From Syntrophaceae bacterium (GTDB lineage Bacteria > Desulfobacterota > Syntrophia > Syntrophales > Smithellaceae): DNA of 64,000 bases. How positions within the stretch are numbered: position 1 is the first letter of the stretch; each line of letters starts with the position of its first letter. Below, piece by piece: positions 48,290 through 55,678 of the stretch. Location: positions 4,756 to 68,755 of the forward strand of contig PLMQ01000050.1 of NCBI GenBank assembly GCA_003142535.1. Direction: 5' to 3'. A model generated the notes under the pieces. The model worked only from the letters and a program-made list of their open reading frames with translations, searched no databases and was not told where the DNA came from. A program made the translations under genes and the position numbers.

Positions 48290-49312
48290 TCAACATATTC
48301 TTGGAACCAATTCACCCGTCGGCAGATCAACAATCCTTTCCCCACCTATAGAAGTTTTGAGGACAACACGCCCTTGGGTGCCTGTTGCCACATTGCCGAT
48401 AATTGCGGCGGCCTTTCCTAATTCATGCTTTTGCATCGTAGCTAAAACATTCGGCGCATCGGCTGATGGACAAAATAAAACCATTTTGCCTTCATTAGCG
48501 AGATATAGCGGATCGAGTCCCAATATTTCACAAATCCCCCGGACATTATCCTGAACAGGAATAAATTGCTCCGCAATGTTGATTTGGATATTGGCACTCT
48601 GGGCAATTTCCGCCAGAATTGCCCCCAAACCACCTCTGGTTGCATCACGCATGCAGTGGATGTTCGGGTTTGCCTTTAAGATTTCCGAAATCAGCCCGTT
48701 GAGTGGCGCCGAATCGGAGATCACTTCCGCTTCCATTCCCAGATTTTCTCGGGATTTGATTATTGCGGCGCCATGATCGCCGATTGTTCCGTTGATGATA
48801 ATTACATCTCCGGCCTTGATGCTTTTTACAGACAAAGATCCTTCGTATTCGACAATCCCGATGCCGGATGTATTGATAAAAATGCCATCAGCAGCGCCAC
48901 GGGGAACAACCTTCGTATCGCCAGTGACAATTTTTACACCGGCTGTTTTTGCCGCCTCAGCCATCGATGCAATTATTTTTTCCAGCGAGGCAAAAGGGAA
49001 ACCTTCTTCCAGTATAAAGCCTGTACTCATGAACAGCGGCTTACCGCCACATACGGCAAGATCATTGACAGTACCGTGCACAGCGAGCGATCCGATATCG
49101 CCGCCTGGGAAAAAGATTGGGCTTACGACATAGGAATCAGTAGTAAAACAAAGTTTCTGATTGCCGATGGTCAGTATGGCGCTGTCTTCGAGCCGCTCCA
49201 GATAGGGATTACTAAAATGCGGTAGGAAACTTCCCGCTATCAACTCATTGCTCAAGAGCCCGCCACTGCCGTGTTCCAGCAGTACCTTGTCGTATTTTCT
49301 GATGATTGTCAT
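48290..49312 (-). CDS. hypE: Hydrogenase maturation protein HypE
   Basis: A 340-aa PurM-like ATPase that dehydrates the HypF-carbamoylated C-terminal cysteine to a thiocyanate, the source of the hydrogenase cyanide ligands. The essential C-terminal Cys is present (ELVPRIC-stop). GSGGLLSNELI at the N-terminus, TTDSYVVSPIFFPGGDIG, and MRDATRGGLG (ATP-binding) are typical. The gene is split from the rest of the hyp operon by the FlgO/TPR gene and two cassette-like genes. Confidence 0.96.
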   Translation of the reverse strand: MTIIRKYDKVLLEHGSGGLLSNELIAGSFLPHFSNPYLERLEDSAILTIGNQKLCFTTDSYVVSPIFFPGGDIGSLAVHGTVNDLAVCGGKPLFMSTGFILEEGFPFASLEKIIASMAEAAKTAGVKIVTGDTKVVPRGAADGIFINTSGIGIVEYEGSLSVKSIKAGDVIIINGTIGDHGAAIIKSRENLGMEAEVISDSAPLNGLISEILKANPNIHCMRDATRGGLGAILAEIAQSANIQINIAEQFIPVQDNVRGICEILGLDPLYLANEGKMVLFCPSADAPNVLATMQKHELGKAAAIIGNVATGTQGRVVLKTSIGGERIVDLPTGELVPRIC

Positions 49313-49452
49313 GAAAAAATCCTTTTCAATTCCCTATTTAGAAATGAGATTTGTGCGTTTGCTACTTTCATTTTCTTTCCAGACGCTTCATTACTTCTTT
49401 CAAATTCCTAAACCGTTTGGAATTAAGTATCCTGTCCCAGAAATTCCCCGCA

Positions 49453-50007
49453 TTAGCCAACAACTGGTACGCCCGCGATGTATGGAGGCAAACCGTCAGG
49501 GTGCCTGCGCGCAAACCTCTCATAGTTCTTCATGTATTGTTCAGTGGCTTCGACTGCCTGGAGCCAAACCCGAGCACCAGCAATGACCTCTCGGCAGAAG
49601 AGATTTAGGTCGATACAAAGAGCGTCATTTATCTGGCCATAGTGAATGACGTTCGTGGTTGCGCCTGGTTCGATGAAAACGATGCGGCTGAACGGACTTT
49701 TCGGATGTTGTGAACTGCCTTGATGCAGAAGTGAGCACCTAAAACGGTAACAAACATCACCAGTAAGAGGATTCTCGATGTCCTTGACATACGGGCACGC
49801 ATGCTCCGGTACTAAGGCGCGAACGGCCTCCACGAATCTTGGCCGAGCCCATGTGTCATACCAATCCGCGTACTTCTTCCCTGATGCATCACCATCAACG
49901 GAGCTGAGAGCGCCCGCAATGTCGGGCACAGCGAGAGTTCCAATCAAGGACAGGTAGTAGAGACTCGAGCCGAGCGAGGCTTCGATCTGGTCAATTAAGC
50001 TGCGCAT
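49453..50007 (-). CDS. Hypothetical protein, cassette-like
   Basis: A 184-aa soluble protein of unknown function, with many Trp/Tyr residues and Cys at about 71, 86 and 90. I do not recognise a family. Its ATG lies 13 bases after GTTAGGC at the end of an attC-like site (50021-50084), a spacing typical of integron gene cassettes. Codon use is more GC-rich than its neighbours. Confidence 0.65.
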   Translation of the reverse strand: MRSLIDQIEASLGSSLYYLSLIGTLAVPDIAGALSSVDGDASGKKYADWYDTWARPRFVEAVRALVPEHACPYVKDIENPLTGDVCYRFRCSLLHQGSSQHPKSPFSRIVFIEPGATTNVIHYGQINDALCIDLNLFCREVIAGARVWLQAVEATEQYMKNYERFARRHPDGLPPYIAGVPVVG

Positions 50008-50020
50008 GCGCTTCCTTTGG

Positions 50021-50084
50021 GCCTAACGCGTGGGTACAGCCATAGCCTACTTTTTGGGCAATTGGCTACACTAGCTGGGTAGGC
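50021..50084 (-). other. attC-like recombination site 1
   Basis: On the minus strand a 64-base stretch starts GCCTACC and ends GTTAGGC (GTTRRRY); the two ends are complementary with one mismatch. The inner segments TGTAGCC and GGCTATGG can pair. It separates two cassette-like ORFs read in the same direction and shares AACGC...CAGCCATAG (plus strand) with site 2. Confidence 0.5.
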
Positions 50085-50086
50085 AC

Positions 50087-50701
50087 TCATTCATAAATTA
50101 TAATTCGTGCCTCTTTTTCGATTGCCTGAAGCAATGGAGGTATTTCCTTAGAGGATATTTTCCAGGCGTTGTCCCAATATTGGTCACGAGTTTGATCGTT
50201 TGTGGAGTCTGACTGCGCCAATAAAATTTGAAGATGCCTTTCATCTATCTTTTGAAAGAAAGCGTCGACCAACTTTGTGACACCGGCTGGTAAATATAAG
50301 CGACCGATGGCGAACTCGTTATGTGCGTCTTTCAATGCTGATTTAAACAGTTCGGAGGCTTCGTACGGTGCCGCACCTACGATGGACACGGCTTGAGTCA
50401 TGAGCACTGAGTAGTTGTGAACTTCATGCAAGCTCTTGTATAGATTGGCCAATATCTCTGCTTGACGTTCATATATACGCGATTGGCGTAGCAGAAGTAC
50501 AGCGTATTGGGACTTAACACATTCAATCTCTTCGGTTATTCTTGCGATGTCCTCCCGTGTAGCGAGGTTTTTACCTTTTTCTCTAAGGTAAGATGGAATG
50601 AAGGACTTCAGGAGAAGGAATACGAATCCACCAGCAATAATCCCTCCAACGCCGAAAGCACCTACGTAGCTTAACACCAGTTTAATTTCTTCTGTATTCA
50701 T
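50087..50701 (-). CDS. Hypothetical membrane-anchored protein, cassette-like
   Basis: A 204-aa protein with one N-terminal transmembrane helix (about residues 12-33) followed by a long helical domain (TREDIARITEEIECVKSQYAVLL). I recognise no family. A GTTGGGT motif of an attC-like site lies 12-18 bases before its ATG, and a second attC-like site follows the stop. The gene context and foreign codon use suggest a mobile cassette. Confidence 0.65.
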   Translation of the reverse strand: MNTEEIKLVLSYVGAFGVGGIIAGGFVFLLLKSFIPSYLREKGKNLATREDIARITEEIECVKSQYAVLLLRQSRIYERQAEILANLYKSLHEVHNYSVLMTQAVSIVGAAPYEASELFKSALKDAHNEFAIGRLYLPAGVTKLVDAFFQKIDERHLQILLAQSDSTNDQTRDQYWDNAWKISSKEIPPLLQAIEKEARIIIYE

Positions 50702-50704
50702 TGT

Positions 50705-50797
50705 TTAGTCTACACCCAACGCTAAAATCAGCCATAGTTGCAATCGAGCGTTTGGATTGCTCCGAAGCGTCATTTCATCTATTGGTTTAAATTTCAT
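50705..50797 (-). CDS. Possible 30-aa ORF running through attC-like site 2
   Basis: AAAGGAGAAAAG precedes the ATG at 50797. The ORF encodes MKFKPIDEMTLRSNPNARLQ and ends ...LILALGVD with TAA at 50705, so its second half is attC-like sequence. It may be the remnant of a cassette gene or chance. Confidence 0.3.
   Translation of the reverse strand: MKFKPIDEMTLRSNPNARLQLWLILALGVD
50714..50756 (-). other. attC-like recombination site 2 (short)
   Basis: Plus-strand ACCCAACGC...GCGTTTGGAT form imperfect complementary ends. The inner CAGCCATAG is shared with site 1 at nearly the same distance from AACGC. It is short for an attC site (43 bases), so may be degraded. Confidence 0.4.
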
Positions 50798-50874
50798 TTT
50801 GGACTTTTCTCCTTTTTTACCAAACAATTAATATGCGAACTTCCATTGGCACTCTCCTTACGGTAATTCTCTTA

Positions 50875-52434
50875 TTAATACCCCAAGCGCTGGGCATTGC
50901 TGAGTGCTTTGTCTTTTTCGGGACCAACATATCCGGCACTGATGAAGGTATCATAAGCGTTTCTGAAATATCTCCCCGCCATTGCCTTGTTTCTCTGTTT
51001 TACATAAATAAGCCCCATATTAAAGAGAAGGCGGGCATAGCCTGCTGTATTCTGCAACCCTAGCCTTTCATGTATTTCCTTAAAATCTGTATAGTATTTC
51101 AGGGCACTGTCCAAGTCGCCTTTGGATTGGTAAACATTACCGATGTTCCCCATGAGGTGGGCATAGTTTGCCGTATTCTGCAACCCGAGCCTGTCCTCTA
51201 TTGCCTTATCTTCCATGTAGTATTTCAGGGCACTGTCCAAGTCGCCTTTGGAGTTGTAAACAACACCGATGTTCATCATGAGGCTGGCATAGTGTGTGGT
51301 ATTGCGCAACCCTAGCCTGTCCATAATTTCCTGAGCATCCAAGTAGTATTTCAGGGCGCGGTCCATGTCGCCTTTGGCGTTGTAAACATTACCGATATTT
51401 CCCATTAGGTTGGCATAGTCTGCTGTATTCTGCAACCCTAGCCTGTCCCATATTGTCTGAGAATCAGTGTAGTATTGCAGGGCACGGTCAAGGTCACCTT
51501 TGGTCGAGTATGTAATTCCGATGCTATTCATGAGTTTGGCATAGTCTGCGGTATTTTGTAACCCGAGCCTGTCCTGTATTGCCTGAGAATCAATATAGTA
51601 TTTCAGGGCACGATCCAGATCGCCTTTGGTGTGGTAGAGATTACCGATTTTCATCATGAGGCGGGCATAGTCGGAGGTGTTAGTGGCCTTGCGTGATTGC
51701 ATTATCTTGTCGGCATGAGTGAGGTAATCCAACGCCTCAGCAAACAGGTTCAACGCTACGCCGGCAGTAGAACCAGCGTTCATCAGAGCAGAAACATAAT
51801 TTTCATCTATCGCCAAAGCTTTCGTAAAATAAGCAAGGGCCTCTTTGGGGTTTGTATCCTGAAGTTCCAGACCTTTGGCATATAATTCATAGGCCGTTGT
51901 TTTCGGTTTTGTTTTTTCCGCTATTCTAACCCGGGCGACATCAGTAATACTCGCCTTGCCGGTCTCCAATAAAAGTGTGAGGACGACCTTATCCTGCAGG
52001 TCAAAGATTTTTTCGAGGGTGCCGTCGAGCTTGGCCGAGCCTTCTGTCTTTCCTGTTTCCACATTGATGAGACGGGCAATTACGCGGACATTCTTTCCGG
52101 AAACCAGATAACTTCCCGAAAAGATGATGTTGGCACCGACAAGCTTACCGACTTTAATCATCGTTTCTTCCGCAACAAGGCCGGAGAGGATGAACTTTGT
52201 CTCCTCTATAATCTTCCTGCGGTCGGCATTGGAGATGACACTGACTTCTTTTATCCCCGTGAGGTCATTAATGGCGGTATCGGTCATACCCGCCGATATC
52301 CAGGAATATTGTTTATCTCCCGTATTCTCAAAAGGAAAAACGAGGATGGTCATTTGTTTGGCCATAGCCTGCGTGGAAAGCAAAATTAAAAGAAAAGAGA
52401 GAACTAATATGCCATAGAAAAATCTCTTTTTCAT
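50875..52434 (-). CDS. Exported FlgO/CsgG-like protein with near-identical TPR repeats
   Basis: A 519-aa exported protein. The signal peptide MKKRFFYGILVLSFLLILLS ends at QAMA-KQ. Residues about 28-150 resemble the FlgO/CsgG N-terminal fold (ILVFPFENTGDKQYSWISAGMTDTAIND, VGANIIFSGSYLVSG). A plain TPR (KEALAYFTKALAIDENYVSAL) and then six TPR-type units of exactly 42 residues follow, each with DYAxLMxxIGxxYxxKGDLDxALKYYxDxxxIxDRLGLQNT. The repeats are nearly identical in DNA too (126-bp period), indicating recent expansion. It probably works as an envelope scaffold. It lies between hypF and the cassette genes. Confidence 0.85.
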   Translation of the reverse strand: MKKRFFYGILVLSFLLILLSTQAMAKQMTILVFPFENTGDKQYSWISAGMTDTAINDLTGIKEVSVISNADRRKIIEETKFILSGLVAEETMIKVGKLVGANIIFSGSYLVSGKNVRVIARLINVETGKTEGSAKLDGTLEKIFDLQDKVVLTLLLETGKASITDVARVRIAEKTKPKTTAYELYAKGLELQDTNPKEALAYFTKALAIDENYVSALMNAGSTAGVALNLFAEALDYLTHADKIMQSRKATNTSDYARLMMKIGNLYHTKGDLDRALKYYIDSQAIQDRLGLQNTADYAKLMNSIGITYSTKGDLDRALQYYTDSQTIWDRLGLQNTADYANLMGNIGNVYNAKGDMDRALKYYLDAQEIMDRLGLRNTTHYASLMMNIGVVYNSKGDLDSALKYYMEDKAIEDRLGLQNTANYAHLMGNIGNVYQSKGDLDSALKYYTDFKEIHERLGLQNTAGYARLLFNMGLIYVKQRNKAMAGRYFRNAYDTFISAGYVGPEKDKALSNAQRLGY

Positions 52435-52615: not shown

Positions 52616-52739
52616 GGGGCTGTTCAAAAATGTTCAGGTACAAGGCGCGTAAAAACCAACTCGCGAGGCGTATATGAATATACGTTGAGCGGTTGGGTTT
52701 GCAGCGTAACGCAGTAAATGAGCGTTTTTCAACAGCCCC
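52616..52739. repeat. Family C palindromic element, copy 1
   Basis: A 124-bp element with ends GGGGCTGTTCAAAAA / TTTTTCAACAGCCCC and a central ACAAGGCGCG...GCAGCGTAACGCAGT and TATATGAATATA. It lies between the FlgO/TPR gene and hypF, next to the hypF stop. Elements of this plan (AAGGCGCG...GCAACGCAG) are related to copy 2 at 55699. Confidence 0.75.
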
Positions 52740-52740
52740 A

Positions 52741-55017
52741 CTATTTCTTGGCAATTGCTCCGGCGATAACTGCCTGCCCCAGCGCAATGCCGCCGTCGTT
52801 AGTTGGTACCTGTTTATGATGAAAAACCGCAAAGCCGGCACTTTCTAGTTGCTTAATGCTACCTTCTAATAGAATTTTGTTTTGAAAGCAACCACCACTT
52901 AGGCAGACTCTATTTATGCCGGTTTTCTCGCGTATCTGCTCGCACATGGCTACAAATGCTACTGCCAGTGTCCTATGAAAAGAAGAGGAAATTTCTTTTT
53001 TGCTTTTTCCTGCTAACAAATCATTGACAATAGCGCGGATGGTGGATGATATATCAAGGATCAAACAGTTATCAGCATTGGGCGTGATGGCAAAAGGGAA
53101 GGGCTCAGCGGCTTCGTGATCAGACTCACCTTCAAGTTCCATTGCCGCCTGACCTTCAAAGCTCACCGTTTTGCGCACACCGATAATTGCCGCAACACCA
53201 TCAAATAATCTCCCCAATCCCGATGTCAGCGGACTGTTGATTTTATTAGCAATTATTTTATCAAGTACTTTACTGTCCATTCCAGCGGGTATAATGCCCA
53301 GTTGCGCGGCAATCTCAGACCAGGATTGGCCATAGGCCAGAGCAAGCAGGCTTGCAGCTATGCGCCAAGGCTCATGAATTGCTTTCTCACCACCGGGTAA
53401 AACAAAATACTGGAGATGTCCCAGTCGCTTAAATTCCGTTTCATTAGCTATAAGAAATTCACAGCCCCAAGCATGGCCGTCAAGGCCGAAGCCTGTGCCA
53501 TCCATAGCGAGGCCAATCACATCTCCGTCAATCTGATTTTCCGCCATACAACTGACAATGTGGGCGTGATGATGCTGAATGCGGATTACTCTGACACCAG
53601 TCATCTCTTCGGCGACCTTTGTCGAATAGTAGGCAGGATGAGCGTCACAAGCAATCACATCGGGGTTCGATTCGGTAATCTTTTTCATTAAAGTTAAACT
53701 TTCCTGAAAAAAATCTCTGGCCTGTGGCGTTTCCAGATCGCCGATATGCGGGCTCAAAAAGGCAAAGTTGCCTTTCACAATGCATTGTGTTGCTTTTAAA
53801 TGCGCACCTAAAGCAAGGACATCAGGAAAAGAATCTTTCAGTAGAATGGGCTTGGGGACAAAACCGCGCGACCGCCGCAATAGCTGCTCTTTTCCTGCCG
53901 CGATCATAGCAATGGAGTCATCACAGCGAACTAAAATATCACGATTATGGATAAGGAAATAATCGGCAATTCCTTTTAAGCGAATTATCGCTTCCCGATT
54001 GCTGATACATATCGGCTCATCAACCTGATTGGCGCTCGTCATGACCAATGCGGCAAAATCTTTTTCCAGCAGCAGGTAATGCGGCGGCGTATAAGGAAGC
54101 ATGACACCGAGGTTAGGAACACCGGGCGCAACCTGCTCAGAAATTGTGGAGCTATTTTTCTTTTTCAGCAAAACAATTGGCCGTTGCGGCGAGGTCAGAA
54201 GCTTCTCTTCCTCTTCATTAACATCCGCCAAGCATTTCACATTTTCCAGATTCATGACCATGATGGCCATCGGCTTTTCTTCCCGGTACTTGCGTGAACG
54301 AAGTCTCTTTACTGCTTCATCGTTTCCGGCATCGACACTCAGATGAAATCCTCCCAAACCCTTGATGGCTAATACTTTACCCTCTTTAAGCAATCCAATG
54401 GCAGTCTTTATCGGATCATCGGTGCGGAGCGTCTTTCCCACTTCATCGAGGAGTTGAATTTTGGGGCCGCATACAGGGCAGGCATTAGGTTCGGCATGAA
54501 AGCGCCTGTTTGCCGGATTTTCATATTCCGTTTGGCATTGCGCGCACAGCGGGAAGCAGGCCATTGAAGTATTAATGCGATCATAAGGAATTGATTTGAT
54601 GATTGTCAGCCGCGGGCCGCAATTTGTGCAATTAATAAAAGGGTATTGGTAACGGCGGTCTTGGGGATCGAAAAGTTCTTTCAGACAATCCTGACAGATG
54701 GCAATGTCCGGTGAGATGTGCACATCGCCATCGCCGCATGTGTCGCTGGCGATAATCCTAAAATTATCATCCGGCTCTCGGGGAATTTCTTCGGATGAAA
54801 TATTCGTGACATCAGCCAGCGGTGGTAGTTCACGGCGAACCGAGGCGAGAAAAGAATCGATCGCCGCTTCCGAGCCTTCGACTTCTGCCAGAACTCCATC
54901 CGGGCGATTTTGGACAAAACCGCGCAAAGAGTTTTTGACAGCCAGGCGATAAATAAAAGGCCGGAAACCGACGCCCTGAACCACGCCGGAAAATAGATAA
55001 CGAACTCTTTTAATCAT
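52741..55017 (-). CDS. hypF: Carbamoyltransferase HypF
   Basis: A 758-aa enzyme that carbamoylates HypE from carbamoyl phosphate. The acylphosphatase domain (YLFSGVVQGVGFRPF, about residues 6-20) comes first. Two zinc-finger Cys sets follow (CQDCLKELFD...CTNCGPR; CAQCQTEYENPANRRFHAEPNACPVCG), then the YrdC-like domain (KEGKVLAIKGLGGFHL) and the Kae1-like C-terminal domain with HHHAHIVSCMAE and GLAMDGTGFG. The ATG at 55017 is the family start; another at 55038 overlaps hypB further. It is translationally close to hypB. Confidence 0.95.
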   Translation of the reverse strand: MIKRVRYLFSGVVQGVGFRPFIYRLAVKNSLRGFVQNRPDGVLAEVEGSEAAIDSFLASVRRELPPLADVTNISSEEIPREPDDNFRIIASDTCGDGDVHISPDIAICQDCLKELFDPQDRRYQYPFINCTNCGPRLTIIKSIPYDRINTSMACFPLCAQCQTEYENPANRRFHAEPNACPVCGPKIQLLDEVGKTLRTDDPIKTAIGLLKEGKVLAIKGLGGFHLSVDAGNDEAVKRLRSRKYREEKPMAIMVMNLENVKCLADVNEEEEKLLTSPQRPIVLLKKKNSSTISEQVAPGVPNLGVMLPYTPPHYLLLEKDFAALVMTSANQVDEPICISNREAIIRLKGIADYFLIHNRDILVRCDDSIAMIAAGKEQLLRRSRGFVPKPILLKDSFPDVLALGAHLKATQCIVKGNFAFLSPHIGDLETPQARDFFQESLTLMKKITESNPDVIACDAHPAYYSTKVAEEMTGVRVIRIQHHHAHIVSCMAENQIDGDVIGLAMDGTGFGLDGHAWGCEFLIANETEFKRLGHLQYFVLPGGEKAIHEPWRIAASLLALAYGQSWSEIAAQLGIIPAGMDSKVLDKIIANKINSPLTSGLGRLFDGVAAIIGVRKTVSFEGQAAMELEGESDHEAAEPFPFAITPNADNCLILDISSTIRAIVNDLLAGKSKKEISSSFHRTLAVAFVAMCEQIREKTGINRVCLSGGCFQNKILLEGSIKQLESAGFAVFHHKQVPTNDGGIALGQAVIAGAIAKK

Positions 55018-55021
55018 TTCT

Positions 55022-55678
55022 TTATTTTTGGAAAGCATTTATGCGATCCGTAAGCCACGAAATCCAGCCATCAAGGCCGACACCGGTCTTACAGGATACT
55101 TCAAATATTTGCAGGTTTTTGTTAATCGAAAGTGCATCGTGTCTTGCTTTGACCAGATCAAAGTCCACATAAGGAAGAAGGTCAACCTTGTTAATAAGCA
55201 TGACTGCAGATTCCTGAAACATCAACGGATATTTTGCCGGTTTGTCGGCGCCTTCCGGAGTGCTTAAAAGCATGATCTTGGCATTTTCACCAATTTTGAA
55301 TTCGGCCGGGCAGACAAGATTACCGACATTTTCGCAAATGAGTAGATCGATTTTGGTGAGATCAAAAGTAGGCAGCGCTTCCCGGATCATATTGCCGTCA
55401 ATATGGCAGGCTCCGCCGGTATTAATCTGTACTACAGGAATACCAAGCGCGGCTACTCGGTCGGCATCATAAGTATCCTGAATATCTCCTTCGATCACAC
55501 CAATCCGGTATTTGTCTTTCAGCGCTAGGATTGTCCTTTCCACCAGCGTCGTCTTTCCCGCGCCCGGTGAACTCATGAGGTTAATGACATACACATTGTT
55601 CTTATCAAATAATGCCCTGTTTTCGGCAGCAATTCTATCATTGGCATCAAGTACATTTTTTACGACGGTTACTTTCAC
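55022..55678 (-). CDS. hypB: Hydrogenase nickel-incorporation GTPase HypB
   Basis: A 218-aa SIMIBI-class GTPase that helps HypA insert nickel. MSSPGAGKTTLVER is the P-loop, EGDIQDTYDADR and NTGGACHIDGNMI bear the conserved metal and switch residues, and INKVDLLPYVDFD is the base-binding NKxD. The start is the GTG at 55678, five bases after AGGAGG. An ATG 32 codons upstream lies in the family C element and gives nonsense residues. The His-rich N-terminal nickel-storage stretch of some HypB proteins is missing. Confidence 0.94.
   Translation of the reverse strand: MKVTVVKNVLDANDRIAAENRALFDKNNVYVINLMSSPGAGKTTLVERTILALKDKYRIGVIEGDIQDTYDADRVAALGIPVVQINTGGACHIDGNMIREALPTFDLTKIDLLICENVGNLVCPAEFKIGENAKIMLLSTPEGADKPAKYPLMFQESAVMLINKVDLLPYVDFDLVKARHDALSINKNLQIFEVSCKTGVGLDGWISWLTDRINAFQK

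Follow-up and report, generated by a model that had tools for sequence, protein, structure and literature searches.

A probable decayed cassette array beneath an orphan attI core between hypF and hypE of a Syntrophaceae bacterium

The window analysed here is a stretch of 64,000 nucleotides from a Syntrophaceae bacterium (assembly GCA_003142535.1, contig PLMQ01000050.1, referred to below as C7). Two chromosomal genes frame the locus of interest, hypF (52741-55038, an ORF call) on the left and hypE (48290-49312, Pfam AIRS and AIRS_C) on the right, both on the minus strand. In relatives the two genes directly adjoin each other: in the closest one by hypE (G012, 88%) and in many others, hypE lies within about 0-130 bp of hypF. 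Given this arrangement, the roughly 3.4 kb that separate them here must be regarded as an insertion. Its left edge, directly after hypF, is a repeat recognised from the sequence at 52616-52739, with inverted ends GGGGCTGTTGAAAAA...TTTTTGAACAGCCCC. It is followed by a TPR gene (50875-52434, minus strand; Pfam TPR families), which does not occur between hypF and hypE in relatives, and then by an attI core and cassettes. On the right, the flank just before hypE can be aligned with G012 from about 49347. Repeats resembling the one after hypF are present on contig C53 of the same genome (L008, near 6555) and upstream of hypE in L070.

Past the 3' end of the TPR gene the minus strand carries, in this order, the attI core (50823-50849), a remnant of 30 codons that we call ORF X (50705-50797), the 3' half of an attC site (50714-50735), ORF A (50087-50701, 204 aa), a weak but whole attC-like site (50021-50084) and ORF B (49453-50007, 184 aa). 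The unassigned stretch in which an attC of ORF B would be expected, 49347-49452, forms the right edge of the inserted block; no attC was found between 49452 and 49313. The first-pass annotation had noticed the two ORFs of one direction, and both are real (A at 50701-50087, B at 50007-49453). It was also correct that each is preceded by a GTTRRRY box, GTTGGGT (50720-50714) ending 12 nt before the ATG of ORF A and GTTAGGC (50027-50021) ending 13 nt before that of ORF B. Its claim of foreign codon use, on the other hand, is weak, since GC3 is 0.43 in ORF A and 0.56 in ORF B versus 0.45-0.47 in hypF and hypE. The AACGC motif is indeed common to both sites, but the spacer had been miscounted: the correct form is AACGC-N6/N7-CAGCCATAG, not N5/N6.

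Of the two sites proposed, only the one at the A/B junction has the architecture of a whole attC. Our architecture scan reads its 64 nt (50084-50021, GCCTACC...GTTAGGC) as R''-spacer-L''-loop-L'-spacer-R', with R'' GCCTACC, L'' GTGTAGCCA, L' TGGCTGTAC and R' GTTAGGC. As had been proposed, its terminal bases are complementary (6/7) and its inner arms pair, the best pairing being GTGTAGCCA/TGGCTGTAC at 9/9 including two G-T pairs. In Markov-resampled sequence one would expect 0.075 such sites per 64 kb, under limits that were chosen after the site had been seen. Its single-strand folding energy is not unusual and no better than that of shuffles (z = -0.5). The site before ORF A, ATGGCTGATTTTAGCGTTGGGT, is the L'-spacer-R' part of a host-type attC. 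A matrix of the attC 3' arm, built from 61 sites, gives it 15.3 bits and rank 2 of 127,954 window positions; about 4 comparable hits are found in 800 kb of reversed control. A 5' half is not recognisable there, and we read this site as half an attC, at which cassette A starts. The arms of the A/B site rank only 221 and 78 of 127,954 under the same matrix, and it is plausible from its R'' (GCCTACC versus GCCTAAC) that it is a degenerate attC of another type.

The cassette reading of the first-pass annotation seems largely right to us, but not for the reasons given. We built covariance models from the lineage's own attC sites (R1 from 18 sites, R2 from 62 including those of relatives), and both window sites score at background. 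Background scores were among the outcomes that annotation had named as speaking against it, yet these lineage-biased models also miss two evident attC sites beside the ORF B homologue in L047. An Rfam search returned nothing relevant. A hand-made composite consensus ranked the A/B site first in the window and was dropped as partly fitted by eye; a simple scan of relatives for attC by R''/R' pairing gave too much noise to be of use.

The attI core, which the first-pass annotation did not report, is near-perfect; it lies at 50823-50842 as AAGTTCGCATATTAATTGTT, that is, AAGTTCGCATATTAATTG followed by TT, and the cut within G/TT falls between 50825 and 50824, about 120 nt upstream of ORF A. Next to the integrase gene intI this core recurs on contig C53 of this genome and in the relatives G010, G018, G021, G045, G023 and G009. 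The intI-adjacent attI of C53 ends in GTATATTAATTG before the cut and continues with TTGGCC after it; its window counterpart has AAGTTCGCATATTAATTG and TTTGGT. The 20-mer core matches the window once only, where 0.07 matches would be expected even at 3 mismatches. A matrix built without the window copy gives it 21.4 bits, compared with 12.7 for the second-best window position and a maximum of 17.4 over 864 kb of reversed control. Of a complete integron the locus therefore possesses the attI, as a core of about 24 nt only; no intI gene lies next to it, and the TPR gene, which ends 26 nt before the core, adjoins it instead. Most other orphan copies in this genome (attI without an adjacent intI) keep about 180 bp, of which the window copy retains only about 24.

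ORF X begins 27 nt after the attI cut, with a ribosome-binding site, and ends 3 nt before the ATG of ORF A. No homologue of it was found. It may be the truncated first cassette serving as a translated leader for ORF A, by analogy with known short ORFs before cassette genes. Another possibility is that cassettes entered a chance attG-type site inside a small gene: if the first 28 codons of ORF X are placed directly before the sequence that follows ORF B, the two read through in frame at G/TTGG as a 56-codon ORF with a ribosome-binding site. Cassette insertion at attG and at attI-like secondary sites is known (Loot et al. 2024, as cited in PMC12901181). In our opinion such a split gene is highly improbable: joining in frame happens by chance in one third of cases, searches of the class sample, the phylum sample, plasmids and viral contigs gave no intact homologue, and the attI core 27 nt upstream of ORF X better accounts for the left edge. 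One candidate for the split gene, on contig C2 with a 54% match, runs antisense to another gene, and we regard it as chance.

The advice to look for an integrase and further attC sites elsewhere in the genome proved fruitful. Contig C53 encodes an integron integrase that clears the curated cut-off of NCBIfam TIGR02249 by a wide margin (search of the window's own assembly). With it lies a cassette array, in which four small ORFs upstream of intI, divergent from it, have attC sites between them. By pattern search and covariance model we found 19 attC sites (E below 0.001), spread over ten contigs. TIGR02249 matches occur on C53, C57, C20 and C29 only, and none on C7. Hence the description of the array as lacking an integrase holds locally but not for the genome. 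As to the protein itself, the C53 intI (L008:2492-3796) encodes 434 aa, about 120 aa beyond the family model, and upstream the N-terminal part of the model is matched a second time, weakly; similarly long open frames occur in several relatives. A further tyrosine recombinase (C57:44109-44918, L003/L004) matches the integron-integrase model partially and below the cut-off.

We take ORF A and ORF B to be cassette cargo because an attI core lies upstream, ORF B has homologues in canonical cassettes and the whole block is an insertion. ORF B homologues with 45-68% identity are found in Chloroflexi, a deltaproteobacterium, Polaromonas, Nitrospirae, Rhodanobacter and others, and those in Chloroflexi, Nitrospirae and Rhodanobacter assemblies sit in canonical attC cassettes. 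GTTAGGC or GTTAGCG precedes the homologues in L043, L047 and L049. In L043 GTTAGGC stands shortly before the ATG and GCCTAAC...GTTAGGC follows the gene; in L047 a canonical attC follows it; in L049 the gene has an attC on either side, and the contig ends within the downstream one. ORF B of the window likewise follows an R' box, while an attC of its own is absent from its 3' side. Since its homologues end in GVPVVG or similar, ORF B is complete and only the attC is missing. Other relatives occur outside integrons, in a prophage region and in phages. The gene is widely transferred. Among 395 genomes of the phylum ORF B is present in 3 and ORF A in 1, the bacterium's own; neither was found in IMG/VR.

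In the alignment of ORF B the RCSLLHQGSSQHP-type block and RCSLLH are invariant. HEPN RNases are recognised by a helical HEPN fold with an Rx4-6H motif, and the Rx4H of ORF B suggests such an enzyme, as a lead only. Its AlphaFold model (pLDDT 79.5) has no significant match in the PDB; AbiV and Csm6 appear only at E 6-9, with a TM of about 0.35 or less. ORF A has neither a homologue nor a family, so that its cassette nature rests on position. It is predicted to be a membrane-anchored helical protein, again only a lead, the prediction coming from a single-sequence model to which we give low weight.

It could be argued that these are ordinary horizontally acquired or orphan genes, and that the boxes and palindromes arose by chance. 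The background covariance scores, the insignificant folding and the ORF B relatives outside integrons would all agree with this. However, the attI core exceeds anything in the controls, the attC 3' half lies in the expected place and ORF B belongs to true cassettes elsewhere, and we consider coincidence very unlikely.

The attI core of the window does not stand alone. Counting within selected loci and a 400-kb sample, we found at least eight further copies without an adjacent intI in this genome, mostly in the form of attI, one gene and attC. They lie on C53 (a second copy, before an SDR gene), C50, C66, C12 (two copies), C20, C36, C43 and C67. In most of them one ORF follows within 12-40 nt of the core and an attC follows the ORF. 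Full copies have about 170-183 bp upstream of the cut in common with the intI-adjacent attI, and little else beyond. Since some of the contigs break off close to the copy, a split assembly could hide an intI in the case of C36 and C43. "Orphan attI plus cassettes" is thus a recurrent arrangement in this genome, and the window locus represents it in a worn state.

Several of these copies deserve a comment of their own. On C67 (L041:1076-2002) dapF, encoding diaminopimelate epimerase (Pfam DAP_epimerase, 3e-57), lies between an attI-like core of type i, with about 180 bp common to the C53 attI, and a host-type attC that begins right after the dapF stop; it is a housekeeping gene in a cassette-like unit. 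On C53 (L008:7773, minus strand) a type-ii attI, some 5.5 kb away from the intI-adjacent one, lies 20 nt before the SDR gene, and no attC follows that gene. On C66 (L034:1482-1668) the core immediately follows an attC within a cassette array; it looks as though attI DNA had itself entered in the manner of a cassette. C20 and C43 (L037:1974-2187 and L040) have type-ii attI with different cassette genes and are 93% identical over 214 bp from the attC on; this common part includes a segment starting GAGCCTGTAG and ending CTACAGGCTC, which may represent either a cassette lacking an ORF or a small mobile element. In G015, which has no strong integrase match, there are two candidate orphan attI (L140:1292-1991 and L141:9718-10543) of 24.7 and 18.0 bits. 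Both have an attC or a piece of one downstream, and the weaker scores close to the control maximum of 17.4. In G022 (L071:227, minus strand) an orphan core lies about 1.3 kb downstream of hypE, a position different from that of the window locus.

These copies bear directly on the explanation that a whole integron once stood at the locus, from which intI was deleted so that only attI and a few cassettes remain, and that the other orphan copies have the same kind of origin. Loss of intI is an accepted origin of CALINs (PMC8618304), and attI types ii and iii match the attI beside intI in G010 and G018, as would be expected of former integrons here. Repeated loss from several integrons is indeed a serious rival as an account of the attI spread. 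For the window locus we nevertheless find it rather unlikely: no remnant of intI was found near the locus, none on C7 at all, and only 26 nt separate the end of the TPR gene from the core. Moreover, to account for nine or more loci with three attI types, one would have to assume deletion many times over, each event independent and ending at a similar distance, 170-183 bp, from the cut.

We therefore favour, with reasonable though not full confidence, the explanation that 50849-49453 on the minus strand is a decayed cassette array without integrase, whose cassettes were captured at a stray attI and decayed in place. An integron integrase, that of C53 or one since lost, would have recombined incoming cassettes into the attI downstream of the TPR gene. 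The resulting order would have been attI, a first cassette (now ORF X and the half attC), cassette A (ORF A and the weak attC) and cassette B (ORF B). Subsequent loss of attC parts would have fused X to A and removed the terminal attC of B, in consequence of which the cassettes could no longer be excised efficiently and became fixed in place. Their transcription, and any expression, would probably come from the side of the TPR gene. The sporadic distribution of ORF A and ORF B and the other orphan attI copies lend this further support; against it speak the negative covariance models, the folding no better than shuffles, the lack of an attC after ORF B, the shortness of the attI and an ORF A without homologue.

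How does such a locus compare with known systems? CALINs and SALINs are clusters or single attC sites without an integron integrase (IntegronFinder 2.0, PMC9024848; PMC12690207). Like them, the locus combines cassette genes and attC remains with no integrase nearby and a genomic integrase elsewhere; unlike them, it is headed by a recognisable attI core, and its sole whole attC-like site is missed by covariance models. IntegronFinder 2.0 asks for at least two attC sites in a CALIN, and here there are one whole attC-like site and one 3' half, none of them detected by covariance model. A SALIN has one attC recognised by a model; our models are negative here, though the same models miss the canonical attC of L047. 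Insertion at attG and attI-like secondary sites (for off-target activity see PMC10127599) resembles the present case in that the cassettes landed far from the integrase, but here they landed in what is recognisably a copy of the lineage's attI and not a degenerate short triplet. In the fused cassettes of PMC4670013, as here, partial loss of an attC joins two cassettes and a short ORF precedes a cassette gene; the present case differs in being chromosomal, outside an integron and deprived of the terminal attC as well. Finally, the sedentary chromosomal integron of C53 has the same attI core and the same host-type attC 3' arm, whereas the window locus has no adjacent intI and its A/B attC is of another type.

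In our opinion the unusual part is the dispersal of stray attI in a genome that bears an integrase, more than the window locus by itself. We tentatively suggest, as a possibility we hold to be somewhat less probable than its opposite, that attI itself is dispersed in this bacterial family: about ten integrase-less copies of three types in one genome, several with the same intI-attI intergenic segment of about 180 bp, would serve as landing pads, each taking up one or a few cassettes and in one case even dapF, with one integrase acting on many chromosomal sites. Perhaps attI itself moves as cassette-like DNA, as the C66 copy inside a cassette array might indicate. A literature search found no paper on orphan or dispersed attI, although absence of this kind is not proof. 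CALINs are usually put down to lost integrases, rearrangement or off-target insertion. Full or partial copies of attI at many loci, each with a cassette gene, offer a further, testable route, in which landing pads are served in trans by one integrase. If this is true, it would account for cassette genes turning into ordinary chromosomal genes, and it would predict the positions of cassettes in related genomes.
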